64,000 bases of DNA from Flavivirga spongiicola (lineage in GTDB: Bacteria > Bacteroidota > Bacteroidia > Flavobacteriales > Flavobacteriaceae), in the NCBI RefSeq assembly GCF_030540825.1, contig NZ_JAUOEO010000001.1, positions 4,849,001-4,913,000 of the forward strand, read 5' to 3'. Each line of letters opens with the position of its first letter. The stretch's first letter is position 1. The notes below the pieces were generated by a model, which worked only from the letters and a program-made list of their open reading frames with translations, was not told the DNA's origin and ran no database searches. The position numbers were made by a program, and so were the translations under genes. Shown piece by piece: positions 20,116-42,515 of the stretch.

Positions 20116-20147
20116 TCGTTGGTTGGAAACGTTGTATAGACGAATGA
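20116..20147 (-). promoter_or_regulatory. LytTR-type direct-repeat operator, site 1
   Basis: TCGTTGGTTGG (20116-20126) and TAGACGAATGA (20137-20147), 21-bp period. First of six sites of the same design. It lies between the GT2 gene (minus) and the 1029-residue membrane protein gene (plus) and could serve both. Confidence 0.6.
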
Positions 20148-20227
20148 AAATTTTACTTCGATAAATACCACTCGTCGAAACAAAACTTTGTTATATCTTT
20201 AATTCGTAGAAAACAGCTTACATTTTA

Positions 20228-23200
20228 ATGAAGGAAAAGTCAAATAAATATTTAATGGTTGCTTTGCTCTTGGGGTTAGCGTTTCACGGGACTTCTATAT
20301 TCTTTACTTTAGAAACCACCTATGATGCGCTAATACATTTGTTTTTTGCAGACCATTATGCGAATAGTTGGTTTGAACCATGGAACTATAAATGGTACAC
20401 AGGCTTTACAGTAATGAGTTACCCGCCATTAGTGCATCAGGCTATTGCAGCATTTTCTTTTATTGGTGGATTAAAATTTGGGCTATTCATAGTAGCCATC
20501 ATTAGTGTTATATTATTTATAACCGGGGCTTACCGATTTGCTTTATTAATGACTTCAAATAAAACTGCTGCAGGTTACGCCGCCATATTAGCTGTACTAT
20601 CGTCGTCGTTTGTCGAAACTCTACACTTATTTGGACAATTACCTAGTATTATTGGAATCTCTATTTTAATGCATGCCCTACCAGAAATCTATTTATGGAT
20701 AAAAACAGGTAAGTATTGCTATTTATTGACATCTTTATCATTAATAGCAGTTACAGTAACATCACACCATGTCACACCTATATTCGGTATGGTGTTCTTC
20801 ATTTTTCCTTTAATAGGTATGGTTATCATGGATGTTTCAAGAGAACAGGTCGATTCCATCAAAGCCATAACGTTCAAAGTTTTTTTAAGTAGTTTTTTTA
20901 AACTTTTTAAACGGATTGTAAGTTTTGGAATGTTATCACTGGTCACCATCATTGGATGCATTCTACCTTATTGGATCAATTCTAAAAGCAACCCCATTAC
21001 ACAAGTTCCTATTCCACACGGATCACGTGATAACTTTTTAGAAATCACTTCATCCGGTTTGGTTTTCTTTTTAATCCCTTGGGGTATATTACTTATACTT
21101 CTCCCCTATATATTTTATAGATATTATAGTAAACGCTATTTGTTCTTTGGTTTATCAATAACTATATTATTTATTTTAGGAACAGGAGGCACCACCTTTA
21201 TCCCTAGATTTGTATTAGGTGAAACCGCTTTTAATATTTTAACACTTGATCGATTTACATTATGGGCTTCCATCATGTCTCTCCCTCTTTTTGGTGAATT
21301 TGCTTATCGTTTTATAGAAGGCGATTTAAAAACCTTAATACAGAATAAATTTGGAGCTATCTACCATCGTATTATTGGTGGACTACTCGCTGGTCTATTT
21401 ATATTCATGACCATTTTCACCATGAGCTTAGGGTATTTTAGACCTTCTCAACCTCAGCAAATAAAGATGTTACCCATTGTTAATTTTCTTAATCAAGACC
21501 AACATGACCAATGGCGTTATATGACTTTAGGCTTTGGAGACCAAATGGCGTGGTTATCTGCGCAAACCAATGCAATGAGTGTTGACGGTAACTACCATTC
21601 TGCCAGACGACTACCAGAGCTTACAACAAGGCCTATTGAGCGTTTAGAAAATTCTAAGTTCAAAGGCATTGAAGGGATTGGGTCTTTACAACAGTTTTTA
21701 ACCACACCGGAAAAGTATCATCTTAAATATATTTTTTCTAATGATAAGTTTTACGATCCCATCTTGTATTTCTGTGGTTGGCAACGCCTAAGACAATTAG
21801 AAAATGGCATTCAGGTATGGGAAAAGCTAAATGTACCACCAATATCATCCATTTTACCAAAAGACGATGTCGCTATGTGGCAAAAAATACTTTGGGGTAT
21901 TATTCCTTTTTTAACGGTTATTATAGCGTTTATATTGAACATTCAATTACTATGGATTCGTGCTTTAAAAACGAAGGTGAAAATAATTCCTGAATACTTG
22001 AAATTTGAGACTAATTATAATCAATTTTCAAAAAGACTTCTTAAAACAACGCATATTTGGTCTGTCATTCTAGTTATAGTTGTTTGTTTTGGTATCTATA
22101 AATTCTATATTAAAAATGACGCACATCATTCGCCAGAAAACGCTATCATAGCCTATTATGACGCTTTGGACTTTAAAGAATTTGAAAAAGCACATAGTCT
22201 TATTAATCCAGAAAGTAATATACAAATTGCACAATATATGTTGGAAATCTCGGTAACCGATGGCTTATTAAGTTCGTATGCTAAATTAGATGCCATAGAG
22301 ACCATCATAATAAATGAAACTGATAGTTTAGCTACAGTTAAAGTCAATACTAATTGGATAACTCCTTTAGAGAAAATAAATAAAACAGATTATAAATCAT
22401 TGATTAAATTACATGGCAAGTGGTTTATTCAACCTGATGATATTGATTTAGATTTACCTCCAGATCAGTTGTATTCCGATAATACCACGAGTTATTTTAA
22501 TCAGGGTCGCAGACGTATTACGACAGAACAAACCCATCATGAAGATGTTTTAAAACAACCAGTTTTAGAAGTCCTTTCTGCTAAATTGATAAAATATCAT
22601 AGTAGTTATGCTTTAATAGGCGAAGTTCAGAATATAGACAATGTTCCTGCTGATGTTGTTTTAAAAGGTACCTTGTATAATGATAACGATAAAGAATTAG
22701 CAACTTTTAATGCCAAATATCATGTAAAGCATAAATTAATGCCAAAGGAAGTGAGCTCTTTTAAAATCAATTTTGAAGGCATTGCCTGGTCTAAAACTCA
22801 GGATTCTATCCCGAAAACTTTTAATCCTGACGAATTTACACCTGTTGAGTTTAATGAACAACCTACTAAGTTTAACTTACAAGTAGCCGGTAATGTTTCT
22901 GGTTCAGATTTATACAAAAAGGCAACTTTAAGTGATTTAGATATCTCATCAAATGTTATTAGCGGAAAATTATTTAATTCTGGATTAGAAGAAATTACCA
23001 TTCCGCAACTATTGATTACTTATTATGATGACCATAAAAGTCTGATTTGGGTAGATCATTTGTTTTTAGAAGAAGGCATCAGGCAGCAACGACAACAAAC
23101 TTTTAAATATTCACTTTTAAAAGATCACAACATACTCATAATAAGCGATGATATGAAAGATTGTTATGTAAATGGTTTACCAAATGAAGCCATTTCAAAT

Positions 23201-23317
23201 AAAATAGTCCCGGATAGAATTATAAATCAAACGCATACAAAACTGCAAACCGTAAATAATCCAAACTATAAGTTTATTAAAATTGAAATTAACAGTTATA
23301 TAGGAAACCCAAATTGA
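20228..23317 (+). CDS. large GT-C-like membrane protein with periplasmic NTF2-like and FxLYD-like regions
   Basis: 1029 residues. Residues 1-430 hold about eleven membrane helices; an early loop has ETTYDALIHLFFADHYAN, resembling the acidic first-loop motif of GT-C glycosyltransferases that use polyprenyl-phosphate sugars. About 430-560 is periplasmic, two more helices lie near 560-580 and 630-650, and the tail is extracytoplasmic: an NTF2/SnoaL-like segment (about 660-760), then an FxLYD-like beta domain (about 790-870). The stop overlaps the next start by 4 bp (ATGA), so it forms an operon with 23314 and 24528. Likely a sugar transferase or polymerase of the polysaccharide locus; this is inference. 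Confidence 0.65.
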   Translation: MKEKSNKYLMVALLLGLAFHGTSIFFTLETTYDALIHLFFADHYANSWFEPWNYKWYTGFTVMSYPPLVHQAIAAFSFIGGLKFGLFIVAIISVILFITGAYRFALLMTSNKTAAGYAAILAVLSSSFVETLHLFGQLPSIIGISILMHALPEIYLWIKTGKYCYLLTSLSLIAVTVTSHHVTPIFGMVFFIFPLIGMVIMDVSREQVDSIKAITFKVFLSSFFKLFKRIVSFGMLSLVTIIGCILPYWINSKSNPITQVPIPHGSRDNFLEITSSGLVFFLIPWGILLILLPYIFYRYYSKRYLFFGLSITILFILGTGGTTFIPRFVLGETAFNILTLDRFTLWASIMSLPLFGEFAYRFIEGDLKTLIQNKFGAIYHRIIGGLLAGLFIFMTIFTMSLGYFRPSQPQQIKMLPIVNFLNQDQHDQWRYMTLGFGDQMAWLSAQTNAMSVDGNYHSARRLPELTTRPIERLENSKFKGIEGIGSLQQFLTTPEKYHLKYIFSNDKFYDPILYFCGWQRLRQLENGIQVWEKLNVPPISSILPKDDVAMWQKILWGIIPFLTVIIAFILNIQLLWIRALKTKVKIIPEYLKFETNYNQFSKRLLKTTHIWSVILVIVVCFGIYKFYIKNDAHHSPENAIIAYYDALDFKEFEKAHSLINPESNIQIAQYMLEISVTDGLLSSYAKLDAIETIIINETDSLATVKVNTNWITPLEKINKTDYKSLIKLHGKWFIQPDDIDLDLPPDQLYSDNTTSYFNQGRRRITTEQTHHEDVLKQPVLEVLSAKLIKYHSSYALIGEVQNIDNVPADVVLKGTLYNDNDKELATFNAKYHVKHKLMPKEVSSFKINFEGIAWSKTQDSIPKTFNPDEFTPVEFNEQPTKFNLQVAGNVSGSDLYKKATLSDLDISSNVISGKLFNSGLEEITIPQLLITYYDDHKSLIWVDHLFLEEGIRQQRQQTFKYSLLKDHNILIISDDMKDCYVNGLPNEAISNKIVPDRIINQTHTKLQTVNNPNYKFIKIEINSYIGNPN

Positions 23318-24531
23318 TGACATCAAAGTTTACATACCTGCTCATAATAGTAATGCTATCATTATCATTCAGATCTTCTGTGGAACAAGTAGCAATTAAT
23401 GAGACATTCCATTTACTAACTAATGAAACCGAATTTGAAGTAGGAAGCACTATTGTTTTAAAGTTTTCAACCAGTAATAGTTCTAAACCAAACTTATATT
23501 TAAGTAACAGCTATGGCTCTATAATCCTTAAACCTGTTCTTGAAAGCGGTGTTTTGAATTACCTACTCCCCAAATCATTCAGTAATAAAAAAGGAGTAAT
23601 TAACTGGAAATTATTAAGTAACAATACACCATTATCCGGTAAATTCAATATGCACTCAAAACAAGAAGTAGCAACAATGGAAACCTATTTAGGACCACCG
23701 AGCATTGAAGCAGGGGGGACAGATTACACCATGTTAGTTGTTATTCCAACAGATTCTTATGATAACCCTTTAAAAGATAGCACCCAAGTTTTAGTAAAAC
23801 ACCAGTTTTTAGCAAATGAAAGTCATGATGTTATTTACATGAAAAATGGCATCAGTTATAAAAATATATTTTCAGAACTAAAAACAGGACGCATGCTTAT
23901 CGGTTCAGAATCTTTAAGCAAAAACTCAAAAGAATATGATGTTAATGTGTTACCAGCTATTCCAACTGATTTTACTATAGCTTATAATCGTAATCATGAG
24001 TATGCCGACGGTAATCAAATAACTAACTTTTCAACTTCTATTATAAAAGACAAAAACAACAATGTAGTTAGTGATGGTACCTATGTCGATTTTTTTATTA
24101 CTAATACCTCAAACCATGTGCTTAAAACGTCTGGTAGTACAATTAATGGTATTGCGACGGCTAAAATGATTCACCCAGACCATCAAGATAGCTGGACAGT
24201 AAAAGCTTTTATAGAAGGTATGGCAGAAAGCAATAGTATAGCATTAATTTACAAACAGGCTGTTTTAGATTTTCAGGTTATTTTTTCTGAAGACAACCGA
24301 ACGGTTACTATCGGGCCTTTAAAAAGTTTTATGAATCAAATGATTCCGGATGGTTTAGAGGTAAAACTACATATGTATCAAAACGACACAAAAATCAAAA
24401 CACTTAATAAAAGTTCGTTTGAAGGTTATACTAGCTTTAAACTGAATTCTGATATTTTCCCTGAAAACATGTACACTTTTAAACTAGAAACTGCTGGTAT
24501 TGAAAAAACATATCAAAATATTAAACTATGA
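23314..24531 (+). CDS. secreted beta-rich protein of the polysaccharide operon, function unknown
   Basis: 405 residues with a signal peptide (hydrophobic residues 5-18). The rest is predicted beta-rich, with segments such as DGNQITNFSTSIIKDKNNNVVSDGTYVDF (about 231-260) that read like bacterial Ig-like or invasin-type domains. No catalytic motif seen. It is coupled to both neighbours by 4-bp overlaps, so it probably acts with the GT-C-like protein and the GH5-like hydrolase at the periplasmic face, perhaps as a polysaccharide-binding or scaffold subunit. Confidence 0.6.
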   Translation: MMTSKFTYLLIIVMLSLSFRSSVEQVAINETFHLLTNETEFEVGSTIVLKFSTSNSSKPNLYLSNSYGSIILKPVLESGVLNYLLPKSFSNKKGVINWKLLSNNTPLSGKFNMHSKQEVATMETYLGPPSIEAGGTDYTMLVVIPTDSYDNPLKDSTQVLVKHQFLANESHDVIYMKNGISYKNIFSELKTGRMLIGSESLSKNSKEYDVNVLPAIPTDFTIAYNRNHEYADGNQITNFSTSIIKDKNNNVVSDGTYVDFFITNTSNHVLKTSGSTINGIATAKMIHPDHQDSWTVKAFIEGMAESNSIALIYKQAVLDFQVIFSEDNRTVTIGPLKSFMNQMIPDGLEVKLHMYQNDTKIKTLNKSSFEGYTSFKLNSDIFPENMYTFKLETAGIEKTYQNIKL

Positions 24532-26045
24532 TAGGTATTAACAAGAACATATTACGTGTCACTTTAATACTCTCATACATTGCTATCATTGCTTTGGTTG
24601 TCTTTGGGATTAGTAGTTTATATAGTTATCTTAATACAGGTGCAGACAGAAGCAGCATACTACATACAGAAATTAAAAAAATAGATCAGTATCTACCTAA
24701 AATAGTATGGGCGCCTTTGAACAATGAAGGTCGACCTATGGATATGCAAACCCTAAATACTATTGAAAATGATTACCTGGATGCCTGGTATGTTAAACAT
24801 ATAGCTTACAAAACCAATAAAGCTAAAGGTATTGACGACTATTATACTGATAGCGCACGTGAAAACATTTTTAATATTATTGAACATAATACCACTGAAA
24901 ACATTGCTGTTGAAGGTACGACCTTAGAGCACCACCCTACTCTGGAGTTTTTTAGTGAAGATGGGCAACTGGCTGTTATAACTGATAAAGATGTAGTTGA
25001 ATACAAGTGTATTTATGAAAATAAAAATATCATCTTAGAGACCACAGAGAAATCGACTTACAAAATTATTTTACTATTAGAAGATGGTTTTTGGCGTATT
25101 CGACATATGATGAAGGTTCACAGTGAAATTTACAATAAAAAGGAAATACCATCTTCAAATCAAATAACACCATTAAAAGGCATTAATTATTATCCACAAG
25201 ATGCTCCTTGGGATATGTTTGGTGATACATTTAATTTAGATATTATTTCGAAAGATTTCAAACTCATTAAAGAAGTTGGACTCAATAGTATTCGGCTTTT
25301 TGTGCCTTACGTAGATTTCGGCAAGGCAAATGTAAATACGGAAAAATTAAAAAAGCTTACTCAAGTATTAGACTTGGCCGAAATACAAGAATTGAAAGTC
25401 CTAGTGACATTATTTGATTTTTATGGTGATTATTCGGTATTGGATTGGACGTTAAATCAGCGTCACGCAGAAACTATCGTCACTACTTTAAAAAACCACA
25501 ACGCTTTGTTGGCTTGGGATATTAAAAATGAACCTAATTTAGATTTTGAATCTCGTGGACAAGAGCATGTGATTGCCTGGTTGAACCATATGATTGATTT
25601 GGTAAAATCTATTGATCAAGAACACCCCATTACTATCGGCTGGTCCAATGCCAAAAGTGCTACCATTCTAAAAGATAAACTAGACCTTATCACCTTTCAT
25701 TATTATGAAGATCTGAATGATTTAGAAAAAACGTATCAAGATTTAAAGCAAAAAACACCTAATAAATCTATCGCTATTACCGAATTTGGAATGTCATCGT
25801 ATAAAGGGCTTTGGAACCCTTTTGGTAATTCAGAAAAGAATCAAATGGCATATCATAAACAAGCACAAAACATTTTTCATAACTACGAGATATCCTCTAT
25901 GTCCTGGACACTCTATGATTTTACAAAAATACCAAAGGAAGTCGTTGGACGACTTCCTTGGCATAAACGGGCTCAAGAACATTTTGGGTTTATAAACCAA
26001 AACGGAGAGACTAAACCCGCTTTTAAATTTATATCTAAACAGTAA
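24528..26045 (+). CDS. membrane-anchored GH5-like glycoside hydrolase
   Basis: 505 residues. One N-terminal membrane helix (about 10-32), then an NTF2-like segment (about 60-200), then a (beta/alpha)8 cellulase-like domain (about 220-500). Catalytic features: WDIKNEP near residue 330 (acid/base Glu) and ITEFG near 420 (nucleophile Glu), with LNSIRLFVPY near 245 and SWTLYDF near 460. In polysaccharide secretion loci such hydrolases trim or release the nascent chain (as BcsZ or PelA do). The gene ends 11 bp inside the convergent GT4 gene. Confidence 0.78.
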   Translation: MIGINKNILRVTLILSYIAIIALVVFGISSLYSYLNTGADRSSILHTEIKKIDQYLPKIVWAPLNNEGRPMDMQTLNTIENDYLDAWYVKHIAYKTNKAKGIDDYYTDSARENIFNIIEHNTTENIAVEGTTLEHHPTLEFFSEDGQLAVITDKDVVEYKCIYENKNIILETTEKSTYKIILLLEDGFWRIRHMMKVHSEIYNKKEIPSSNQITPLKGINYYPQDAPWDMFGDTFNLDIISKDFKLIKEVGLNSIRLFVPYVDFGKANVNTEKLKKLTQVLDLAEIQELKVLVTLFDFYGDYSVLDWTLNQRHAETIVTTLKNHNALLAWDIKNEPNLDFESRGQEHVIAWLNHMIDLVKSIDQEHPITIGWSNAKSATILKDKLDLITFHYYEDLNDLEKTYQDLKQKTPNKSIAITEFGMSSYKGLWNPFGNSEKNQMAYHKQAQNIFHNYEISSMSWTLYDFTKIPKEVVGRLPWHKRAQEHFGFINQNGETKPAFKFISKQ

Positions 26046-27252
26046 CCTGTTGTTGTTGTTGTAATTTTTCTCTTTTCTTTTTTAAAATAATAGCTTCAAA
26101 TGTATTTAAATAAATGTTAATTATTCTTAACATAGGATAAGCAGTTGCCGCTTTATAATTAGCTCTTTCCAGCTCAACTCTATAGGCATTATCTTCAAGA
26201 ATTTTTTGAATAGCTAAAGCCAAGCTGCTCACACTTGTAGGTTCAAAAAACTCGCCTTTATAACCTTCATCCTTTACTAAAAGAGCCAAGTCTCCTATAT
26301 CTGGCATAACAACAGCTTTACCATAACTTCCTGCTTGATGTAATACACCAGAGCTCCCTGTTGTAGATGTATAAGGAAATACCACAAGCGCACTCTCTTT
26401 GAACAATTTTGGTACATCCTGCTCTTCAACATAACCCGTAAAAGTTAATCCTTCAACATGGCTATAAGCCTTTTTTACAGACTCTAAATACCCTGGTGTA
26501 TTAGGATTATCCGTCCCTGCTATAACGACTTCTAGATTTAAATTTGAATATTTTCTGATACGCTCAACAGCTTCAATTAACGATTCTACTTTTTTATAAG
26601 TTCCAAACTTTCCAAAAGTCATAACTTTAAAAGGTTGCAGTGGTACGTCGTAGGTTGGTTCTTCAAGGATTTCAAACGTACCATGTGGTATAAGTTTTAC
26701 ATTTTTAGCATGGTATTTTTCCTCTAAAATGTCAACATACTTTTGCATGGTTAAAGCAACGACATCGGCTTGAAGAATTAATCGTGTTAATGTGCTCCCT
26801 ATAAATCCATAGATTTTCTGCATGATTTTATTATTTGTAAATCCTGCATTTCCCAAATCTACTTCTTCCAGTATGTTATGCAATAAAACAATATTTGGGA
26901 TTTTTTTAAGCTTACAAACCAATGGTAACATTAAACCTAAAGCAGCGGCCACTTTTTTATCACCAAACTTCATAAACTGTAAATTGAACAAAACGGCATC
27001 TGGTTTAGTTGCATCAATAGCCTTAGTCACACTAAAAATGGTAGTATAGCTATTAAATTTCCAACATTCTTTTATTGTTACTTTGCATCCAGCTTCGATA
27101 AATTCAATATCTTTTTTTCCTTCTGTTTTATCAGTTAACAATATTAATTCTGTTATCCTTTCTTTTTGTCTAAAGTGTTTTACCAAATGATATGCATATT
27201 CATTTAAAGTGACTTTACTTGGTGGATATGCTGTTACGATTGCTAGTTTCAT
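26035..27252 (-). CDS. family 4 glycosyltransferase
   Basis: 405 residues, cytoplasmic. It has a Rossmann-type N-terminus (MKLAIVTAYPPSK) and the GT4 C-terminal donor site: FKVMTFGKFGTYKKVESLIEA near 205, SALVVFPYTSTTGSSGVLHQAGSYGKAVV near 300 and the EX7E-type region after it. Ends in a glutamine run (QQQQQ) at the C-terminus. Likely adds sugars to the growing polysaccharide. Transcribed alone with site 2 of the LytTR-type operator 64 bp upstream. Confidence 0.85.
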   Translation of the reverse strand: MKLAIVTAYPPSKVTLNEYAYHLVKHFRQKERITELILLTDKTEGKKDIEFIEAGCKVTIKECWKFNSYTTIFSVTKAIDATKPDAVLFNLQFMKFGDKKVAAALGLMLPLVCKLKKIPNIVLLHNILEEVDLGNAGFTNNKIMQKIYGFIGSTLTRLILQADVVALTMQKYVDILEEKYHAKNVKLIPHGTFEILEEPTYDVPLQPFKVMTFGKFGTYKKVESLIEAVERIRKYSNLNLEVVIAGTDNPNTPGYLESVKKAYSHVEGLTFTGYVEEQDVPKLFKESALVVFPYTSTTGSSGVLHQAGSYGKAVVMPDIGDLALLVKDEGYKGEFFEPTSVSSLALAIQKILEDNAYRVELERANYKAATAYPMLRIINIYLNTFEAIILKKKREKLQQQQQVTV

Positions 27253-27316
27253 AATAATCTAGTTTAATATTTATAGTACAAATTTGGGGTTTTACTCACC
27301 AAAAAAGGGGTGGTTT

Positions 27317-27348
27317 TAGATGAGTCAACTTTTACTGTAGACGAATGG
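27317..27348 (-). promoter_or_regulatory. LytTR-type direct-repeat operator, site 2
   Basis: TAGATGAGTCA (27317-27327) and TAGACGAATGG (27338-27348), 21-bp period. A weak -7 box, CAAATTTG on the plus strand, is at 27279-27286, exactly 30 bp away as at site 1. Target: the GT4 gene. Confidence 0.6.
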
Positions 27349-27517: not shown

Positions 27518-28759
27518 TTAAACCTTTTTTTGATCCAATCTAAAGAATACAAGTTGAATGATCAATAATAAAATCATGGCTACAATCTGCATATAAACAA
27601 CTTGCTCTAAACTATCGTGATAGAAAACAACCAATACCATTTGAAGCATCCCGAACACTCCTGATATAATTACCGGCACATATTTATCTAAAGACAAATA
27701 GTAATAAGCGAATATGTTAGAAATGGCAAACATGCTTGTTGCTATGGCATATTTCCATAAAAGAGGCGCCATGGCTATATAACTTTCACCAAATAATAGC
27801 TTAATGATCGTTTCAGGGAAGCTTAAGCATGCTAAAACAATGGTCATTGAAATAACTACTATGTACCCAACATACTTAAATAATGTTGATGCGGTTTCCT
27901 TTCCTTCTTTTTTAAGTTGAACTACTGTTGGCAATAATAACATCACAAACATCCAGGCTATAAAATAAACGATACGTCCTATTAAAGCTAAAGAAGCATA
28001 TAAACCAGCTTCATAAGATTCAAAGTAATGTTTTACTAAAAGAATATCACTGTTATTAATGATGATCTGTGTTAACTCATAAAAGGCAGTTAATATAAAA
28101 AACTGTTTCACTTGTTTAGATTGTAGAACAGGCATTTTAACTGCTTTTTTCAAACTGACCTGCTTAAATTTAAAAGGCACTAATCCAAATCCAAACGACA
28201 TAAGGATACCAATAGCTATAACGACTGAAGATTGAATATTGAATAAGAAGATTAATCCTAAAGTAATCAGTAATCGACTCAACATTTCTAATTGATATGT
28301 AATCGATAGTGATTTATAGGCTTTCTTTCCTTGAAAAATACCTCTGTTAACACTCATTAAAAAGTATAAAGGCACACCGCATCCAAAAATAATGAACATG
28401 CTTGAAGATGCCGTATTAAAAAGTTGTTGTAATTGAGACGCAAAACCAATAACTAAAACACCTAATACTAAGCCTATAGTGAAAGCATTCTTATAAACTT
28501 TTGAGATAAAACTTTTAAACAATTGATTTTCAAAAAGCACCGAAAACTTTGCAGTAACCAATTGAAAGGTCATTGCTACAAAAGATAACACCAATAAAAA
28601 TGTTATTAGTACTGCTGCATCTGCAAATTGTGCCGGACCTAATAAGCGACCAAGAATTAGATTATATAAATAATTCCCTCCATTAACTGCCAGAACACTT
28701 ATCATAAATAACTGCTCTGGCGTCACTCTTTTCTTTAAATTATTTGCTATCGTAATCAT
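27518..28759 (-). CDS. polysaccharide flippase-like membrane protein (Wzx/PelG-like)
   Basis: 413 residues with about twelve membrane helices and the MVF/MOP-family layout (N-terminal NYLYNLILGRLLGPAQFADAAVL near 28-50; central FFILTAFYELTQIIINNSDILLVKHYF near 216). Such proteins move lipid-linked sugars or polymers across the inner membrane. The start overlaps the upstream STAS gene by 20 bp, so translation is coupled. Part of a three-gene minus-strand unit with two STAS proteins. Confidence 0.8.
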   Translation of the reverse strand: MITIANNLKKRVTPEQLFMISVLAVNGGNYLYNLILGRLLGPAQFADAAVLITFLLVLSFVAMTFQLVTAKFSVLFENQLFKSFISKVYKNAFTIGLVLGVLVIGFASQLQQLFNTASSSMFIIFGCGVPLYFLMSVNRGIFQGKKAYKSLSITYQLEMLSRLLITLGLIFLFNIQSSVVIAIGILMSFGFGLVPFKFKQVSLKKAVKMPVLQSKQVKQFFILTAFYELTQIIINNSDILLVKHYFESYEAGLYASLALIGRIVYFIAWMFVMLLLPTVVQLKKEGKETASTLFKYVGYIVVISMTIVLACLSFPETIIKLLFGESYIAMAPLLWKYAIATSMFAISNIFAYYYLSLDKYVPVIISGVFGMLQMVLVVFYHDSLEQVVYMQIVAMILLLIIQLVFFRLDQKKV

Positions 28760-29048
28760 TTCTAAATATGTTTATTAGATTAGCAGCTTCAAATTGCTTC
28801 TTAATACGTTTATTATCTTTCCCTAGAACGAATAGAACTTTACTTCTTCTTTTTGCTTTAGCATCAATAAACTGCATGACATTTAAAGCTTTAGCATCCA
28901 TACGCTTAACTTGTTTAAGACATATTGTAATTTCATAATATCTATCCAACAGGTTATTAAAGAAATCTGCTACCTGATTGGTATATGCATTTGTAAAATG
29001 ACCCCGTATTTCAAAAATGCCTTTGTTATTTATTATCTCGAAGTTCAT
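28740..29048 (-). CDS. STAS-domain protein
   Basis: 102 residues, single STAS-like domain with the strand-helix pattern IRGHFTNAYTNQVADFFNNLL and ITICLKQVKRMDAKALNVMQFIDAKA. The usual phosphorylatable Ser of anti-sigma-factor antagonists (DSSG) is replaced: the loop reads MDAKAL. So it is probably a binding or scaffolding domain, not a classical SpoIIAA. It overlaps the flippase gene and follows a second STAS gene. Confidence 0.72.
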   Translation of the reverse strand: MNFEIINNKGIFEIRGHFTNAYTNQVADFFNNLLDRYYEITICLKQVKRMDAKALNVMQFIDAKAKRRSKVLFVLGKDNKRIKKQFEAANLINIFRNDYDSK

Positions 29049-29360: not shown

Positions 29361-29438
29361 AATTTCTATTCTTTTATTAATACTATTTTGATTTCTGATG
29401 TAAAGATGCATTGGAATCCTTAATTTTATTATCCAAGT

Positions 29439-35093: not shown

Positions 35094-37676
35094 TTATTCT
35101 ATGAGTAGTTTTATCGTTTTATAAGTTTTTCTCTTACTTTTTATTTTACAGAAATACAATCCTGAACTTAAGCCTGTTCTTTCAAGTTTCATTTCATTTT
35201 TACCTTTAACAGCTTCATGCGTCATCGTTTTAACCAATCCACCTAATTGACTGTAAACCACCAACTCAACCCTTTCAGAATTCTGGCTTGAAAAATGTAT
35301 GGTTGTACTAGACTCCATAGGGTTTGGTGACGCAAATGTTTTATTCAACTCATCCTCTGTTTTAAATGAGTCCACCGAAAGTGTACTACTAGTTGAAAAA
35401 CGTAACTGTTGCAAAGTCATTTCTTTAGTTTCTATATCACCGGTTTCAGCTAGCATGGTAAACACTATAGAGGTTACGTCATTCACTTCAAAATCATTAC
35501 CGTTAATGGATTTAAATTCAGAAAATGGAATACTATAGTCTTGTAATTCATTAGTTAATGAAATACTGGTTTTATACTGTTCTTTCCAGTTGCTCACACC
35601 TTCCTTAACCAATCTAACAATTAATGCTCCTGTTCCTTTCGCTTTAAACTGCAAGCTATTATAATCTGATAAATCTATAGGGTTAAACTTTGGTGTTAAG
35701 GCTCTATAAGCTGCAATATACTCACTGGTATTGGCTGCTAATTCTATATTACGTTCAATAGGAAACTCATCGTCATTAAATTCTTCTTTATTAGGCTCTA
35801 CTTTGTATACGTTAACCATTGTACTTGGTGCTGCATCATCATATCCCCAAGGGCCGTCAGACATAAACAAATCATCTGGTGTAGCGATACCATCACCTAT
35901 TCTAAAACCAATATCAAATAGGTTACCTGCATCTACTTCTATATTCGTAATGTAGTTGCCATCTAAATCTAAAGTTGACGATACATACTCTACAGTATTG
36001 GTTTCTGTAGCCCTTAATCCACCATCAAATTTAACAGCTTCACTCCTATTCGTATTCACAATTTGTAATTCCAGCTTTCCATGATGATATTTACCTTTTC
36101 TAACAAAAACCGTTGGTGGTGTTGAGTTATTATAACTCGTTACTGGCTTTTGAACATCTAATAGTCGTACCACTTCTTCTCCAAGACGTAATAAATCATC
36201 TAAAGAATTGGACCAGATTTGGAAATTATAGAATGGTACATTGTTTTCATATTTATCTAAATTCCAATGGCTTTCAACTTCGAAGTTAGTACCACTGTTT
36301 ATTGGTTTTGCTGATAAACTCAGTACGAATTCCAGAGAACCATCGATATTTCTAATCAATGCTTTTATAAATTTTTGTTCTTTGATTTCTATGGTTGATA
36401 CCGAAATTAGCTCAGCTCCCAATAGCCTATCGCAAATATATTTAGTGTGTTCGTATACACCTTTGTCAGTTTTAAGAACAAGTATTGATGCTACAGCTTC
36501 GTCTGCTTTCATATAATCTACAGAATATATCTCGGTAGCATTGGTAATGCTTAATAAATCTATTGGAGATGATTCTATGACATGGTCTTCATTTAAAATT
36601 TCCAATGGTACAAAATCTGATAATTGTAATCCGGTTTTACTAGTTTTTTTACCATACTTAGCAGATTTTGTAAATCGCTTTGCAGACACTTTATCAAATT
36701 TGTAATTGTTCTTAGCACGGTCAAAGTTTCTCTTATTAATCTGCTCAGACAATCTATTATTACTTTCCAATCCTCCTGAATTACCACTCGATGTTGGTGC
36801 TTCAATAACAGGACAAGCTGCATAACCAGAACATGAAGGATCTTCACAATCTACTAAGCCGTCACCATCATCATCAATACCATTCGTACAATCTTCTTGT
36901 GGTACGGGAGCCGTTGGACAACGAGCACCATCATTTTGAGAACTTGAAGGACCAAAAGCGAACAGATTTGAGTCCATATTATTGGTGCCGTCTAAATCTT
37001 GTACGTTTTGTATAACATAAATAGTTCCAGTTTGATTAGCAGATACATAAAAACGACCAGACGCATCAAAATAAACGGCACCATAAGTGTAATTTAAGCC
37101 TGATAAGATTGGGACTTCACCTAAACTTTCCACAGTGCCGCTTTCTGCTTCTATACGATATAGTATATTGGTTTTCTTTTCTACGGTATATAATTTACCA
37201 TCCACGGCATTGAATGCCCAGTCATGAATGCTTATACTTTTTGATAAATCTTTTGTTGTTATATAACTTCCATAATTATCAGAATCTGGGTTTAGGTCTA
37301 TCGCATAATAAGGTGTTCCTCCACCTTTTAAATAATAAACCCCTTCTGCACTGACATCTCCAATATATCTGCCATTAGTTGGCAACTCATCTACATAAAA
37401 CGTAAGGGTCGAGAAGTCTTTACCTATTCTAACTATAGATTTTGCTGGATAACTTAACGAACCCCAGATAAATCCATCTGTAGGGTTGTACGCAGCAGCG
37501 TTAATAGTTCCTTCTGTTACATCGGTTGCTACTGTATATGAATTCCCAGAGGCCAAGTCAATAGCATACACATCGTTGTATTGGAATAAGTAAGCATTAT
37601 AATCACAATTAAATGGTATGTCTTGTGTATATACACTCGTGTAAATAAGCACAAGTAATAGTAATATTTTTTTCAT
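35094..37676 (-). CDS. large secreted type IX cargo protein, putative matrix/adhesin component
   Basis: 860 residues, signal peptide to about residue 18. Residues 20-250 look like a six-bladed beta-propeller (DUF6923-like: NGRYIGDVSAEGVYYL, HDWAFNAVDGKLYTVE). A calcium-binding-like linker follows (CTNGIDDDGDGLVDCEDPSC near 262), then a unique region, a carbohydrate-binding/CIA30-like beta domain (about 670-775) and a C-terminal type A T9SS sorting domain (ASPNPMESSTTIHF to the end). Site 4 of the LytTR-type operator and a perfect -7 box lie directly upstream, so it is predicted to be co-expressed with the polysaccharide locus. Confidence 0.8.
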   Translation of the reverse strand: MKKILLLLVLIYTSVYTQDIPFNCDYNAYLFQYNDVYAIDLASGNSYTVATDVTEGTINAAAYNPTDGFIWGSLSYPAKSIVRIGKDFSTLTFYVDELPTNGRYIGDVSAEGVYYLKGGGTPYYAIDLNPDSDNYGSYITTKDLSKSISIHDWAFNAVDGKLYTVEKKTNILYRIEAESGTVESLGEVPILSGLNYTYGAVYFDASGRFYVSANQTGTIYVIQNVQDLDGTNNMDSNLFAFGPSSSQNDGARCPTAPVPQEDCTNGIDDDGDGLVDCEDPSCSGYAACPVIEAPTSSGNSGGLESNNRLSEQINKRNFDRAKNNYKFDKVSAKRFTKSAKYGKKTSKTGLQLSDFVPLEILNEDHVIESSPIDLLSITNATEIYSVDYMKADEAVASILVLKTDKGVYEHTKYICDRLLGAELISVSTIEIKEQKFIKALIRNIDGSLEFVLSLSAKPINSGTNFEVESHWNLDKYENNVPFYNFQIWSNSLDDLLRLGEEVVRLLDVQKPVTSYNNSTPPTVFVRKGKYHHGKLELQIVNTNRSEAVKFDGGLRATETNTVEYVSSTLDLDGNYITNIEVDAGNLFDIGFRIGDGIATPDDLFMSDGPWGYDDAAPSTMVNVYKVEPNKEEFNDDEFPIERNIELAANTSEYIAAYRALTPKFNPIDLSDYNSLQFKAKGTGALIVRLVKEGVSNWKEQYKTSISLTNELQDYSIPFSEFKSINGNDFEVNDVTSIVFTMLAETGDIETKEMTLQQLRFSTSSTLSVDSFKTEDELNKTFASPNPMESSTTIHFSSQNSERVELVVYSQLGGLVKTMTHEAVKGKNEMKLERTGLSSGLYFCKIKSKRKTYKTIKLLIE

Positions 37677-37704: not shown

Positions 37705-37733
37705 TATGACTAAAAGTGCTTAAATTTTAATTT

Positions 37734-37765
37734 TCGGTGGATGGAAATTAAGTGTAGACGAATGG
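37734..37765 (-). promoter_or_regulatory. LytTR-type direct-repeat operator, site 4
   Basis: TCGGTGGATGG (37734-37744) and TAGACGAATGG (37755-37765), 21-bp period. It lies between the LytTR regulator gene and the promoter of the secreted protein. The best-formed combination of operator and -7 box in the window. Confidence 0.68.
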
Positions 37766-37778: not shown

Positions 37779-38492
37779 TTAAAGCAAATTCAAACGCTTC
37801 ATTAACTCAGGTCTATTGGAACGACTTACAGGAATGACGTCTTTTTTTATGAGTACACTGTTATCTTCAATATCAATAATTTTTTTAATATTGATAATGT
37901 ATGAACGATGTACTTTAAGGAATAATGAATCTGGTAATTTCTCCTCAATCTTTTTTAAGGTAGAATGCACCGTATAATTTTTCTCTTCAGTTTTCACATT
38001 GATATAATCCCCTTTGGCTTCAATAAGGTAAATACTGGGAATATCCAGCTTTATTAAACGCCTGTCTATATTTATATACAAATCATTACCAGAAGCAGTT
38101 TCTACAGCATCTGCTGGTTCTGTATTTTTAACAGTTTCTGACGTTGTTGCTTTTGCTTTTTGTATAGCCTTTTCAAACCTTGGTAAGGTTATGGGTTTTA
38201 CCAAATAATCTACAATACAATCATATTCAAAAGCTTCAATCGCAAAATTGGCATCCGAAGTCGTTAAAATTATTTTTGGTGGATTTTTTAAGGTTTGAAT
38301 AAAGTCAAACCCCGTAAAATCTGGCATATGTATATCTAAAAAGATAAGATCTACATTATTCTGATTTAAATATTTAATAGCTTCAATCGCATTTGGAAAT
38401 TCTTCAAGAATGTTTAAACTTGGAATATTTGTACAGAGTTGAGAGATAATAGCTCTGGCTGTAGCTTCGTCATCAATAATAATACAATTCAT
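37779..38492 (-). CDS. LytTR-family response regulator of the H-NOX locus
   Basis: 237 residues. Receiver domain 1-120 with acidic pair DDE near 7-9, phospho-acceptor Asp53 (LIFLDIHMP) and Lys in LVKPITL near 105. The LytTR DNA-binding domain occupies 140-235 (IYLIEAKGDYINVKTEEKNYTVHSTLKKIEEKLP, then FLKVHRSYIINIKKI). It is the last gene of the H-NOX/kinase/HPt operon, 8 bp after the HPt gene. LytTR proteins bind two direct repeats about 21-22 bp apart; six such repeats occur in the window, so this is the prime candidate for binding them. Confidence 0.92.
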   Translation of the reverse strand: MNCIIIDDEATARAIISQLCTNIPSLNILEEFPNAIEAIKYLNQNNVDLIFLDIHMPDFTGFDFIQTLKNPPKIILTTSDANFAIEAFEYDCIVDYLVKPITLPRFEKAIQKAKATTSETVKNTEPADAVETASGNDLYINIDRRLIKLDIPSIYLIEAKGDYINVKTEEKNYTVHSTLKKIEEKLPDSLFLKVHRSYIINIKKIIDIEDNSVLIKKDVIPVSRSNRPELMKRLNLL

Positions 38493-38500
38493 AAAAGTGG

Positions 38501-38821
38501 TTATATGGTCTCTAAAAAGTCCGTTATAAGCTGCAAAATGGTATCAAATTCGGCTTTACCAACGACACTATGGTCTTTTAAATTATTTTCAAAATCTGCA
38601 GCTATAGCATAACTTTTTTCAAGTCCTAAAATACTAATTTTATGCTTAAGTTTGTGTACATTTTCTGCTGATTCTTTAAAGTTTTTAGCTTCAATGTTTT
38701 TAAAATAAACTTCTTTTTCATCTGGAAACTCCCTTTTAATAATAGTTATCAACTTCTCTTTAAAAGCTTCATCTCCACCTGAAAGGGTATTTATATATGA
38801 TAAATTAGGCTGTTCTATCAT
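38501..38821 (-). CDS. HPt phosphotransfer protein
   Basis: 106 residues, all-helical, with the HPt signature around His56 (AENVHKLKHKISILGLEKS; the usual HXLKG has His in place of Gly). The protein carries phosphate between receiver domains in a multistep relay. It overlaps the kinase gene by 4 bp. Since the kinase has no receiver domain, an intermediate receiver is required; the CheY-like protein at 41517 is a candidate. Confidence 0.85.
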   Translation of the reverse strand: MIEQPNLSYINTLSGGDEAFKEKLITIIKREFPDEKEVYFKNIEAKNFKESAENVHKLKHKISILGLEKSYAIAADFENNLKDHSVVGKAEFDTILQLITDFLETI

Positions 38822-40797
38822 TTCTTCTTAAGTGTAAAATAAAATGTCGTGCCTTTTCCTGCTTCGGAATCAATCCAAATTTCTCCTTGGTATAAATCAA
38901 TGATTTTCTTAACTATAGAAAGTCCAACACCTGTTGATTTTTTACTTGTATTAAGAGAATGGAATATTTTAAAAATCTTATCATGATATTCCTTTTTAAT
39001 ACCAACGCCATTATCTTTTATTGAAAATTGATAAAATGATTTTTGTTCTAATACATCAATTTCAATAAGACCTTTCTCTTTATCATTAAACTTGACACCG
39101 TTGCTTATTAAATTTTGAAATAGCTGCTTAAACTTCGTTTTATCTCCTTCTATTATCGGTAGCTTGTTAAGCACATTTATAGAAATATGTTCTGGTACAA
39201 ATAGTATTTTTTTGAGCTCACTGACTATGACATTTAAATCTACAGGTTCTTTTTCGGGCATCTCAGAACCAATACTAGAATACAACAAAACATCAGAAAT
39301 AAGTTGTTCCATCTTCTCTAATGTCGTTTCTATAAGTTCAAAATTCTGAATACTCACAGCATCCAACTTCCCTTTATTATCTTCTTTTATCCAGTTAACC
39401 AGAGCGTCTATACTTCGTAATGGTGACTTTAAATCATGCGACACTATATGTGCATATTCTTGTAACTCATCATTACTTTTTTCAAGTTTTAATAGTAATT
39501 TTTCTTTTTGAAGTTCTAATTTTTTAATATCGGTAATATCTAAATGTACCCCTATTGAACCTACTAATTCTCCATTTAAATTATAATTTGGGGCTCCACT
39601 TATTAACCAATGTCTATCATCTCCTAATTTATTTTTAACTTTTATTTCGTACGAGTGTGATTCCCCTTTACGACGCTTTAAATCTTTAGTTTCTATGACT
39701 TCTGTATTTTCTTTTGTTAAAAATAATTCTTTACCAGTTTTTCCAATAATTTCTTTTTCTGAATATCCAGACATTTCAGAAAAACTCTGATTAATCATTA
39801 ATATTTTACCCTTATTATCAGCTTCAACCAAGCCTAAATTCATATTAGCAATAATGCTACTATATTTTTGTTTTTGAGCTTCTAAACTTTCGCTATACTT
39901 TCGTTTTAAAGTCACATCTCTATAACTCCATAAATGGCCTTTATATTCATGATTTTTAAAAATAGGAATATAGTCGCGTTCTAAAATTTTACCGTCAACC
40001 ATTTTAATTTCATCACCTAAAACAGTGGTTCTTTTATTTAGAGTATCATTAATTTTTGATATAAAGTTTTCTGCATCTACAAATAGATTTTTGCTTTGTT
40101 CTGCTGCATTCGAACAATCTTGCCCTATCATTAATTCCGGAGATATAGGAATATTAAACAATTCACAGAATTTCTTGTTTGTCAGTACTATTTTTCTATT
40201 CTCATCTTCAAGTAAAACACCACTATCTAAATTGAGAATAAGCGTTGATAACCTGTTTTCAGATTCTATCAATTGCTCTTCATTTTGTTTCGCTATAGTT
40301 ATATCTCTAACAATACCTTGTGCAGCGACTGGCACTCCTTTATCATAAATAACACTGGCATTAACATGAACCAATTTAGATTCATTCTTCTTCGTAACTA
40401 TATTTAGAAAAAAATCTGTAATTGAACCTTTTTTCAGTAAAGATTTAAATGAGTCTGTGACGCGTTGTACCTCTGTAGGAGCTGCCATTTTCATTAGATT
40501 AAAATTTTCCTTGGCATTATCAAACCCTAACAAATCTACAGCAGCATCATTCATTTTAAGAATATATCCTTGAAGATCTATAATAACATAAGCATCAACA
40601 ATATTTTCAAAAACACCTTGTAGCTGAGAATCTGTTTTATCTAGTAGTGCTTCTAACTCCGAATAAGATTTTTCTAACTTTTGTTTGGCATCATATAATT
40701 CCGCCGCCTTATCTTCAAGAATTTTTTCTGCTTGTTTTCTGGCAGCTTTTTCACGTGCAAGTGCACGTTTTAGCATGTCAATGTTATCTTGACTCAT
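38818..40797 (-). CDS. cytoplasmic PAS-domain histidine kinase, H-NOX partner
   Basis: 659 residues without membrane helices. N-terminal coiled coil (1-60, MLKRALAREKAARKQAEKILEDKAA-like, seen in H-NOX-associated kinases), three PAS domains (about 58-175, 182-305, 315-430), HisKA with His454 (IVSHDLKSPLRS), and HATPase (about 545-655; NLISNGVKF, DNGVGIKKE, STGVGLSIVKKI). No receiver domain. The ATG overlaps the H-NOX stop by 1 bp, so sensor and kinase are translated together and probably interact directly, as in other bacterial H-NOX/kinase pairs where NO-bound H-NOX inhibits the kinase. Confidence 0.92.
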   Translation of the reverse strand: MSQDNIDMLKRALAREKAARKQAEKILEDKAAELYDAKQKLEKSYSELEALLDKTDSQLQGVFENIVDAYVIIDLQGYILKMNDAAVDLLGFDNAKENFNLMKMAAPTEVQRVTDSFKSLLKKGSITDFFLNIVTKKNESKLVHVNASVIYDKGVPVAAQGIVRDITIAKQNEEQLIESENRLSTLILNLDSGVLLEDENRKIVLTNKKFCELFNIPISPELMIGQDCSNAAEQSKNLFVDAENFISKINDTLNKRTTVLGDEIKMVDGKILERDYIPIFKNHEYKGHLWSYRDVTLKRKYSESLEAQKQKYSSIIANMNLGLVEADNKGKILMINQSFSEMSGYSEKEIIGKTGKELFLTKENTEVIETKDLKRRKGESHSYEIKVKNKLGDDRHWLISGAPNYNLNGELVGSIGVHLDITDIKKLELQKEKLLLKLEKSNDELQEYAHIVSHDLKSPLRSIDALVNWIKEDNKGKLDAVSIQNFELIETTLEKMEQLISDVLLYSSIGSEMPEKEPVDLNVIVSELKKILFVPEHISINVLNKLPIIEGDKTKFKQLFQNLISNGVKFNDKEKGLIEIDVLEQKSFYQFSIKDNGVGIKKEYHDKIFKIFHSLNTSKKSTGVGLSIVKKIIDLYQGEIWIDSEAGKGTTFYFTLKKK

Positions 40798-41336
40798 TAG
40801 TTTTTATTAATTAAAAACTTAACCTCGGTTCCGTCTTCTTTTATTTTTTCTAACTCAATAGTGGCAGTCGAGTTAAAATGTTCGAACGTTTTGTTCATTA
40901 ACCCTAAACCAAAATGGTGCATAGCTCTACTCGATTTATAAATCATTACGAGTGAATTATCTGATTTTTCAAGAACTTCAAAAGTTGGTAATTCTGCATC
41001 TGGATAAATTTTCCTAACCTCCACATGAATATGATTCTCAATAGATGCTAACATCTCTATGGGATCTTTGTAAGTAACTAAAAGCCCTGGGTAGCTATCT
41101 TTTAAAACACCAAAAAAGTGTTCCGCATAGACTAATAATAAATCGTCAATTTTAATATTTGTACGGGCACTTAAATGTTGAAGTAATTGGAGCATTTCAG
41201 AGAATTTATAGGTGCCGACGGCAGTATAAACGCCTTCGGACTCTAACTCAGATTGCGATATAATAGTATCGACCATTTCTAAGCCAAATTTTTCTTCAAC
41301 AAGATCTAAAAACTCTGTAAATACAATACCTTTCAT
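40797..41336 (-). CDS. H-NOX haem-based nitric oxide sensor
   Basis: 179 residues, H-NOX family length. The N-terminus MKGIVFTEFLDLVEEKFG is diagnostic. The proximal haem ligand should be His104 (NHIHVEVRKIYPDAELP); the haem-propionate-binding YXSXR motif is Tyr133-Ser135-Arg137 (IYKSSRAMHHFGLGL). The spacing of 29 residues from His to Tyr matches characterised H-NOX proteins. Facultative anaerobes use such proteins to sense NO and regulate a kinase, often controlling biofilm. First gene of a four-gene operon with kinase, HPt and LytTR regulator. Confidence 0.93.
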   Translation of the reverse strand: MKGIVFTEFLDLVEEKFGLEMVDTIISQSELESEGVYTAVGTYKFSEMLQLLQHLSARTNIKIDDLLLVYAEHFFGVLKDSYPGLLVTYKDPIEMLASIENHIHVEVRKIYPDAELPTFEVLEKSDNSLVMIYKSSRAMHHFGLGLMNKTFEHFNSTATIELEKIKEDGTEVKFLINKN

Positions 41337-41516: not shown

Positions 41517-41930
41517 TTAAATTTTTATTAATTCATTAATACTCCAATAAGCAAGTAGGTTTTTTATTTTGGTAACGTAATCTTCATATTTTAAAGGCTT
41601 TAAAACATAACCTGCAATACCTAACTTATAACATTCTAATAAATCCTTTTGATTATTAGAGGTTGTTAATACAATAGCAGGGATATGTCTTAAATTTTCA
41701 TCCTTTTTTAAAATAGACAAAAATTCTATACCATTAATTTTTGGCATGTTTAAATCTAATAAAATTATGTGAGGTAATTCGTATTTTTTTTCTAAAATAT
41801 TTAAAGCTTCTTCTCCATTATGGGCTTCTATAATATTATGATCAAGGTTTAGAGACGCTACGACCCTATTTAATTTCATAACTTCAATCATATCATCTTC
41901 AATAAGGAGAATTTTCAAATTATTTTTCAT
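41517..41930 (-). CDS. single-domain CheY/Rcp1-like response regulator
   Basis: 137 residues, receiver domain only: acidic pair EDD at 11-13, phospho-acceptor Asp59 (IILLDLNMP), Thr in VLTTS and Lys in YVLKPLKYED. No output domain, so it must act through protein interaction, most simply as the middle receiver of a relay from kinase to HPt. Upstream of H-NOX in the same orientation. LytTR-type site 5 lies 79 bp upstream of its start, which suggests feedback control. Confidence 0.88.
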   Translation of the reverse strand: MKNNLKILLIEDDMIEVMKLNRVVASLNLDHNIIEAHNGEEALNILEKKYELPHIILLDLNMPKINGIEFLSILKKDENLRHIPAIVLTTSNNQKDLLECYKLGIAGYVLKPLKYEDYVTKIKNLLAYWSINELIKI

Positions 41931-42009
41931 TACTTACAATTTAGTTGCATGTAAAAATAATCTAATAGGGTAAAATGATAGCTTTACTTCGTTAGATTCA
42001 ATTTAAGTG

Positions 42010-42041
42010 TAGGTGAATCGCAATTAAGTGTCGACGAATGG
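42010..42041 (-). promoter_or_regulatory. LytTR-type direct-repeat operator, site 5
   Basis: TAGGTGAATCG (42010-42020) and TCGACGAATGG (42031-42041), 21-bp period; both copies are preceded by TTAAGTG, making the similarity longer than at other sites. Upstream of the CheY-like gene. The -7 box is not clear here. Confidence 0.62.
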
Positions 42042-42059
42042 TTTTTTGTATTTCAAAGA

Positions 42060-42398
42060 TCAGGCTGCATCTAGCCTTAGAGTGCTTGTCAAGCTAATAG
42101 TATTTCTCTGAGCACTAAGCTTATTGTGTTCTAAACCTCTTAAGAAAGAGAGTGAAAAGAAACGCAACTGCTTATCATTTAAATTTAATTCTAAATGATT
42201 TATAAATTCTAATTGCTTTAATCGCTTATTCAAAACAACTTCTTCTTGTTGTTTTATTTTAGAATGAGCTTGAAATCTCTGAGAATCAGGTTTTCTTTCT
42301 ATAAACTCAGGCTTGTTATTTTTTGAATTATAAGTAAAGGTCTTAATTATTTTGTCCAATTTGGAATAGAGAGAATTTTTCATTTGTAAATAATTCAA
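42060..42398 (-). CDS. small hypothetical protein of the LytTR regulon
   Basis: 112 residues (an in-frame ATG at 42383 would give 107). Basic, helical, glutamine/lysine-rich, without signal or membrane segment; contains ERKPDSQRFQAHSKIKQQEE and LNDKQLRFFSLSFLRGLEHNKLSAQ. I do not recognise it. It is preceded by LytTR-type site 6 and lies directly upstream of the relay genes, so it may be a small regulator or effector of the same pathway. Confidence 0.55.
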   Translation of the reverse strand: MNYLQMKNSLYSKLDKIIKTFTYNSKNNKPEFIERKPDSQRFQAHSKIKQQEEVVLNKRLKQLEFINHLELNLNDKQLRFFSLSFLRGLEHNKLSAQRNTISLTSTLRLDAA

Positions 42399-42483
42399 GT
42401 TAATATTTCAGTGAATTAATTAAGGTAAATTTAGATTTGAAATGAATTGGATTTATAAAAATTCTTCAAACGAAAGTATTACT

Positions 42484-42515
42484 AAGGTAAAATAAAACGA
42501 AGTGTCGACGAATGG
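42484..42515 (-). promoter_or_regulatory. LytTR-type direct-repeat operator, site 6 (one half degenerate)
   Basis: AAGGTAAAATA (42484-42494, weak) and TCGACGAATGG (42505-42515, identical to the strong half of site 5), 21-bp period. It lies between the small hypothetical gene (minus) and the Rrf2 gene (plus). Confidence 0.45.

Follow-up and report, generated by a model that had tools for sequence, protein, structure and literature searches.

Six direct repeats in Flavivirga spongiicola as probable operators of a LytTR regulator at the end of a putative H-NOX-gated phosphorelay

We have studied six direct repeats in a 64,000-nucleotide stretch of DNA from Flavivirga spongiicola (contig NZ_JAUOEO010000001.1, positions 4,849,001 to 4,913,000; this whole stretch is called the window below). 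The repeats lie ahead of genes for a phosphorelay, which includes an H-NOX haem protein and ends in a LytTR response regulator, and ahead of genes of a polysaccharide locus (Table 1). A first-pass annotation had described them as six pairs with a 21-bp period, all in one orientation and upstream of minus-strand genes, and all six were found in the places it gave, each ahead of a minus-strand gene when read on the minus strand. The distal half-site, which is the first copy, is nearly perfect in all six (CATTCGTC[TG]A), while the second copy, 21 bp on, is degenerate (for example CATCCACCGAA) and very weak at 42484. The site at 42010 had been taken for a pair; the pair is there, but a third half-site follows it in phase. 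A distance of 57-85 bp to the gene start, also claimed earlier, holds for the STAS gene only if translation begins at an in-frame ATG 51 bp inside the open reading frame (ORF), since the operator lies 25 bp from the first ATG of the listed ORF 29082-29411. The spacings to the -7 box of 30, 30 and 29 bp reported for 20116, 27317 and 37734 were recovered as TTTG offsets of 32, 32 and 31 from the edge of our position weight matrix (PWM). The CheY operator has no TTTG within 75 bp, and the 42484 operator has no TTTG box at the usual offset. According to passages of PMC4847170, the sites of nearly all LytTR regulators consist of repeats of 9-11 nt with a spacer of 11-13 nt. The 9-nt core with its 12-nt gap at a 21-bp period falls within this rule, and if the repeats are counted as 11 nt, the gap is 10 nt.

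The relay genes encode a stand-alone CheY-like receiver, the H-NOX protein, a PAS histidine kinase, an Hpt protein and the LytTR regulator. The residues of a multi-step phosphorelay are all present: the HisKA domain of the kinase, the receiver Asp (Asp59 of CheY, in at least 97% of sequences), the Hpt His (His56, in at least 97%; His56 and His60 are both conserved) and the output Asp (Asp53 of the LytTR regulator, in at least 97% of 132 sequences). Since the kinase has no receiver domain of its own and CheY and Hpt are encoded separately, a four-step relay fits this arrangement. In the LytTR domain, the DNA-contact motif FhRhHRS appears as FLKVHRS at residues 191-197, with Lys in place of the first Arg, and is conserved. 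Flanked by the CheY and kinase genes and read in their direction, the H-NOX gene has a frame that is open over the full length. Its product contains an HNOB domain (PF07700, 135.4 bits) and matches PDB entry 6bdd over its full 179 residues with 331 bits; from this domain and this close solved relative, haem and NO binding are predicted. In a set of 120 sequences, at least 97% retain His102, Tyr133 and Ser135 and at least 90% retain Arg137, and we take these residues to be the proximal His and the Tyr-x-Ser-x-Arg motif with the roles usually assigned to them. The entries 6bdd and 6bde presumably come from Kordia algicida. Their molecule field reads 2,4-dihydroxyhept-2-ene-1,7-dioic acid aldolase, despite their H-NOX-like structures.

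Table 1. Operators, relay genes and polysaccharide-locus genes in the window
Feature	Position	Strand	Remarks
Operator before GT2	20114..20147	-	two half-sites, 21-bp period; PWM 26.5; TTTG of -7 box at +32
Operator before GT4	27315..27348	-	PWM 41.7; TTTG at +32
Operator before STAS-(102 aa)-flippase	29437..29470	-	PWM 41.0; box ends TTTA
Operator before T9SS protein	37732..37765	-	PWM 49.5; TTTG at +31
Operator of relay run	41987..42041	-	three half-sites; overlapping PWM hits 42008 (45.4) and 41987 (25.1)
Operator before small hypothetical protein	42482..42515	-	weakest; PWM 22.8
CheY-like stand-alone receiver	41517..41930	-	first relay gene
H-NOX haem protein	40797..41336	-	close to solved 6bdd
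PAS histidine kinase	38818..40797	-	HisKA/HATPase; no receiver domain
Hpt phosphotransfer protein	38501..38821	-	Pfam Hpt 20.2 bits, below cut-off 24.6
LytTR response regulator (REC + LytTR)	37779..38492	-	proposed operator binder; PF00072 65.8 bits, PF04397 75.8 bits
GT2 glycosyltransferase	19228..20052	-	Glycos_transf_2
Three opposite-strand polysaccharide-locus genes	20228..26045	+	1029-aa, 405-aa and 505-aa proteins
GT4 glycosyltransferase	26035..27252	-	Glycos_transf_1
Wzx-type flippase	27518..28759	-	Polysacc_synt_3
102-aa protein between STAS and flippase	28740..29048	-	no Pfam match
STAS-domain protein	29082..29360	-	start taken at the in-frame ATG 51 bp inside ORF 29082-29411
TPR protein, divergent from STAS	29512..31572	+	relatives without operator on sense strand
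860-aa secreted protein	35094..37676	-	T9SS sorting tail + DUF6923
Small hypothetical protein	42060..42398	-	TTG start listed; ATG 5 codons in

Strong matches to the repeat are rare, both genome-wide and in the coding sequence of the loci studied, as the first-pass reading requires. With up to three mismatches the window holds seven matches (one of them a shifted overlap at 20139) against 0.21 expected, and none of 100 shuffles reached seven. The genome-wide search for pairs with a 21-bp period proposed in the first-pass annotation gave, at the same tolerance, ten matches in the 5.9-Mb genome, namely the six sites and four others, and the reversed control gave four. The half-site alone, with at most one mismatch, occurs 15 times in the genome (reversed control, four); all four exact matches and one of the 11 others lie in the window, the remaining ten one-mismatch matches outside it. 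Beyond the six operators and the half-site at 41987, the window has a single PWM hit of at least 8 (10.6 at 20168, plus strand), and 20 shuffles of the window gave one such hit. The PWM was trained on loci L071-L130 together with the window, which makes the scores of the window and of the training set partly circular.

We asked how the operator is distributed over 149 Flavobacteriaceae genomes. An ortholog of the LytTR regulator was found in 61 of them (identity at least 56%, next best at most 49%; the search scored at most about 19 candidates per genome), and the regulators of Flavivirga species, the nearest among named genomes, are 93-94% identical to the product of 37779-38492. The operator, with at most two mismatches, is present in 49 genomes, and the reversed control in one. 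It occurs in 47 of the 61 genomes with the ortholog versus 2 of the 88 without it (Fisher p 1.3e-23, uncorrected for relatedness and too small because the genomes are related). Could the operator simply follow the polysaccharide locus? Where the gene for its 1029-aa protein is present, the operator is found in 32/38 genomes with the regulator and 0/1 without; where that gene is absent, the figures are 15/23 and 2/87. The operator therefore follows the regulator and not the polysaccharide locus. The regulator is no more than 50 kb away from 81 of the 94 operator matches and no more than 10 kb away from 68, and intergenic operators occur in 52 of 60 regulator loci; the sites are thus kept in relatives. 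Both exceptions without an ortholog were retained in the counts. One, G039, has a single two-mismatch match and no H-NOX. The other, G049, has CheY, H-NOX and kinase genes together with operators, no ortholog was found in it, and its H-NOX frame contains an internal stop; we take it for a relay copy in decay, with its operators still in place. In its two stretches, L225 and L249, the interrupted H-NOX gene stands beside CheY and the kinase, and no Hpt or LytTR gene was found there.

Which genes carry the operator was counted in a first and a second set of 80 loci each (the second being L131-L210), with a PWM score of at least 20 within 300 bp upstream taken as an operator. The second set lies outside the PWM training, and eight of its 80 loci are on the same contigs as first-set loci. 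Within the first set, L222/L072, L229/L071 and L230/L229 overlap by 1-5.5 kb, by which a few genes are counted twice, and L223-L228, which were picked by their motif match, do not count as independent. We excluded genes with an upstream region shorter than 310 bp and hits with coverage of 50% or less, identity below 40% or an overlap by a better label; box counts and the residue consensus above exclude duplicate sequences, and the consensus also excludes translated hits with a stop. The operator stands upstream of CheY in 46/56 and 74/78 cases (first and second set, here and below), of STAS in 17/18 and 30/31, of the T9SS gene in 11/12 and 42/53 and of GT4 in 20/33 and 29/34. It was not found upstream of LytTR (0/62, 0/80), H-NOX (0/51, 0/77) or the kinase gene (0/42, 0/59), it stands upstream of Hpt in 1/59 and 0/80 cases, and 4/187 and 6/302 of the sites lie inside other ORFs. 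The usual order in the 60 regulator loci is CheY, H-NOX, kinase, Hpt and LytTR, in many of them followed by the T9SS gene and a locus with TPR, STAS, flippase, GT4, glycosyl hydrolase, Ig-like, 1029-aa and GT2 genes. Since the operator precedes CheY and not the interior relay genes, transcription of the relay should start at the CheY promoter, which would make the relay self-regulating.

Relatives also have operators in front of other genes. We gathered 57 proteins behind operators that have no labelled target. Among them are a UDP-glucose dehydrogenase (six loci), an outer membrane efflux protein (five), a CAP-family protein (four), a Wzz-like protein whose one Pfam match, to GNVR, falls short of the cut-off (three) and, from the same set, a membrane protein (three). 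In L150 and L192, operators with TTTG at the usual offset precede genes of sets that encode a flippase and an initiating sugar transferase carrying a receiver domain; the L192 set also encodes a Wzy_C protein. These Bac_transf enzymes with their receiver domain (L150:13888-15069, L192:11460-12692) are encoded beside a stand-alone receiver gene, and direct phospho-control of the enzyme is possible. A family of small proteins with an L(K/R)xLEFI stretch lies behind operators in 15 loci (one contig counted twice); two members scanned gave no Pfam match, and the product of 42060-42398 in the window matches this family (best E 3e-10). In L104, L105, L120, L214 and others, the first protein behind the operator is a small one which we judged by eye to be STAS-like; these proteins were missed by similarity to the window STAS protein, and one that was scanned had no Pfam match.

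In the 60 loci and the window, 75 sites with at most two mismatches have a period of 21 bp, ten of 22 and three of 17, and none has a period of 18, 19, 20, 23, 24 or 25 bp; at up to three mismatches the series from 17 to 25 bp is 14, 2, 1, 1, 107, 15, 0, 1 and 5. The TTTG of a TAnnTTTG -7 box begins 31 or 32 bp past the last half-site in 95/173 and 113/252 promoters, where 1.1 and 1.6 would be expected per position, and the promoter logo has no conserved -33 element. Such a fixed distance to the -7 box, with no -33 element beside it, speaks for activation. If the start site is a few bases after TTTG, the operator pair would be centred near -57, not far from the -60 of the promoter-proximal repeats of AgrA. 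The consensus of 111 unique CheY promoters has three half-sites, the third being weaker, whereas STAS, GT4, T9SS, flippase and GT2 promoters have two. With a fixed half-site score, three phased half-sites were found in only 2/45 and 4/75 CheY promoters, so the third is a feature of the consensus and not a strong match in each promoter. TTTG stands one repeat further on in 20 of 193 unique sites.

These results led us to the view that the six repeats are very probably operators of one regulon, run by an H-NOX-gated relay which ends in a LytTR activator, and that the regulator they serve is most likely the one encoded at 37779-38492. The claim of the first-pass annotation that this regulator activates the promoters is thus supported, as the operator tracks the ortholog, the -7 spacing is fixed and a -33 element is lacking. 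In the mechanism we propose, the kinase would be gated by H-NOX according to bound NO, and phosphate would pass from the kinase to the Asp of CheY, on to the His of Hpt and finally to the Asp of the LytTR regulator. The phosphorylated regulator would bind two direct half-sites (CATTCRTCKACA), set 21 bp apart on one face of the DNA immediately ahead of the usual place of a -33 element, and recruit RNA polymerase to the TAnnTTTG -7 box. The relay genes, presumably one transcript, would be switched on from the CheY promoter with its three half-sites, which would amount to positive autoregulation. Also switched on would be the genes for polysaccharide (STAS-flippase, GT4 and GT2), for the T9SS-secreted protein and for the small protein, and the product would be a matrix or surface exopolysaccharide.

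Several observations weigh against this view. The operator is missing at two mismatches from 14 of the 61 regulator genomes, and no intergenic PWM site of at least 20 was found in 8/60 regulator loci and in 1/80 loci of the second set. We also looked at 18 further stretches: 14 additional genomes of the family supplied 15 of them, genomes outside it supplied two, and the last is another place in G049. There was no site of at least 18 in L231 and L232, which are from outside the family (regulator identity 54 and 47%), in L233, L234, L245 and L246, which are within it, or in the further stretch L248. Four genomes carry the polysaccharide locus without linkage to the regulator; in G144 and G100 it has a site of at least 20, in G002 the best site scores 17.1, and in G011 none reaches 15. 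The genome G106 (95% complete) has the 1029-aa gene and a site of 26.3, no regulator ortholog was found in it, and its H-NOX gene lies on another contig. Two of the polysaccharide genes are weaker targets, the flippase (operator in 9/34 and 7/40 cases) and GT2 (4/21 and 2/10). Lastly, 72/173 and 136/252 promoters have no TTTG in the range of 25-38 bp.

Is NO then the signal of the switch? The HNOB search bears on this question. By tblastn, 14 genomes have no H-NOX at the regulator locus, and for eight of these the full assembly yields no HNOB match. Seven of the eight (G115, G005, G047, G129, G358, G285 and G309; the assembly of G005 is only 90% complete) carry operators at the regulator locus, and the eighth, G262, has none there. 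In G115, CheY and kinase genes adjoin at 150 bp, which leaves no room for H-NOX. The remaining six of the 14 do have H-NOX, in G363, G373 and G295 near the regulator. Absence by tblastn was not counted by itself because the HNOB search recovered H-NOX that had been missed, and L240 and L242, first taken as lacking H-NOX by tblastn with the window protein, were rejected as such after that search found one there. The seven operator-bearing genomes without H-NOX mean that NO control is not intrinsic to the switch. The earlier statement that the operators tie the polysaccharide locus to an NO relay stands in so far as relay and targets share the operator, but the NO input is not universal. It could be that the switch is real and that the kinase, which has PAS domains of its own, senses something other than H-NOX and NO in F. 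spongiicola too. We consider this unlikely: in this genome the H-NOX gene is intact between CheY and kinase, its key residues are kept and it is near a solved H-NOX, and H-NOX partners inhibit their kinases in Vibrio and Shewanella (for Vibrio, passages of PMC12369376). NO control of the switch is therefore likely in this genome. If, as in Vibrio and Shewanella, NO-bound H-NOX inhibits the kinase, the polysaccharide genes would be transcribed less in the presence of NO.

The operators could also belong to the LytTR regulator and serve repression, or act both ways; LytTR proteins can repress, as AgrA does at bsaA (in sections of PMC4227749). This is rather improbable, because the sites lie upstream of the -7 box, mostly by 31-32 bp, and do not overlap it, which together with the lack of a conserved -33 element fits an activator-dependent promoter; the promoter-proximal repeats of AgrA are centred near -60 (same source). 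Very unlikely is the binding of some other local factor: an Rrf2-type regulator (42610), a Crp-like protein (34374) and a second LytTR protein (57410) are all encoded in the window and could bind DNA. In the 60 regulator loci, mostly of 20 kb, tblastn found a relative of the Rrf2 protein in two and of the Crp-like protein in none, although 52 of these loci have operators, and half-site length and spacing fit LytTR proteins (PMC4847170, in part). The genome has 34 LytTR domains, 33 besides that of the 37779 regulator. In 29 loci of the other LytTR proteins (95 kb), including L045, which holds the one at 57410, there was no PWM hit of at least 8; one of the 29, L046, has a match to the pattern with four mismatches. 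That the repeats are chance or functionless relics of shared locus ancestry, as the closeness of most sites to the regulator (81/94) and the relatedness of the genomes might suggest, is hardly credible, given that operators are rare in coding sequence, mostly keep the 21-bp period and a set distance to the promoter box, are absent before interior genes of the locus and, in relatives, stand ahead of polysaccharide genes that are not homologous. Chance was set aside on the shuffles and reversed-pattern controls, and mere synteny as the source of the co-occurrence on the swapped polysaccharide sets, where the sites are clear, and on the unlinked loci, where two of four are clear.

Some features of the surrounding DNA deserve mention. 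The 1029-aa product of the opposite-strand polysaccharide genes has no Pfam match, the 405-aa product is Ig-like (below the Pfam cut-off) and the 505-aa product resembles glycosyl hydrolases; relatives of these three genes have no operator on the sense strand. Beside the polysaccharide locus, at 1393-19164, lie genes for a molybdopterin oxidoreductase, an NrfD-type membrane subunit, rhodaneses and the molybdenum cofactor. Divergent from the relay, at 42610-44192, are the Rrf2-type regulator, a 2Fe-2S ferredoxin-like gene and two small genes. The second REC-LytTR regulator (57410-58162) has no such operator nearby.

The signal of AgrA, the LytTR response regulator of Staphylococcus aureus, is a peptide. 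Sections of PMC4227749 describe for AgrA two direct repeats, a motif of the FhRhHRS type and the activation of promoters with poor core spacing, besides the position near -60 already mentioned. AgrA differs in the sequence of its half-site, and here we have a -7 box of the Bacteroidota type, three half-sites at the relay promoter and an H-NOX relay signal. AlgR of Pseudomonas aeruginosa is likewise a LytTR regulator of exopolysaccharide, and its core CCGTTCGTC shares 8/9 bases with CCATTCGTC here (PMC4064291, in the part available). The resemblance to AlgR noticed in the first-pass annotation thus holds for the sequence, but not for the arrangement: in that part of the source, AlgR has dispersed sites of either orientation, some of them far upstream, the kinase is AlgZ, and the sites are not phased 21-bp pairs. 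We rejected an AlgR-like regulon of scattered single sites, as the sites here come in phased pairs that share one orientation and lie close to the promoter. YpdB of Escherichia coli also has a direct repeat of a half-site that contains CATT, with another sensor and another target, yhjX (passages of PMC4847170).

With regard to H-NOX, the closest likeness is to Vibrio fischeri, where HnoX, HahK and SypF/SypG control the syp polysaccharide. In the passages of PMC12369376 at hand, H-NOX gates a histidine kinase and the relay controls an exopolysaccharide locus and biofilm; that relay has SypG as its final regulator, and its kinase acts through SypF and LuxU. In the Flavobacteriaceae there are instead four relay proteins, a LytTR regulator at the end and a direct-repeat operator. 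The match to 6bdd and 6bde concerns the H-NOX structure only, relay and operator lying outside it. No account of an H-NOX relay with a LytTR regulator as its last step was found among the matches listed in the literature searched, which takes in few subscription papers. The combination, the operator sequence and the exchangeable ends appear to be new.

We hypothesize, with somewhat more confidence than doubt, that an exchangeable switch made of CheY, kinase, Hpt, LytTR and operator has been kept across the Flavobacteriaceae, that its sensor and polysaccharide ends have been swapped, and that the third half-site marks the relay promoter. At the sensor end, H-NOX is present in most assemblies and absent from the seven operator-bearing ones named above; at the other end are either this polysaccharide locus or non-homologous sets of the Wzx/Wzy type. 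For the control of exopolysaccharide in marine Flavobacteriaceae, this would supply a concrete operator sequence, name its regulator and list the promoters. It would also give an H-NOX protein a dedicated transcriptional output which could be read with a simple reporter, and the operator would allow the regulon to be predicted in sequenced relatives.

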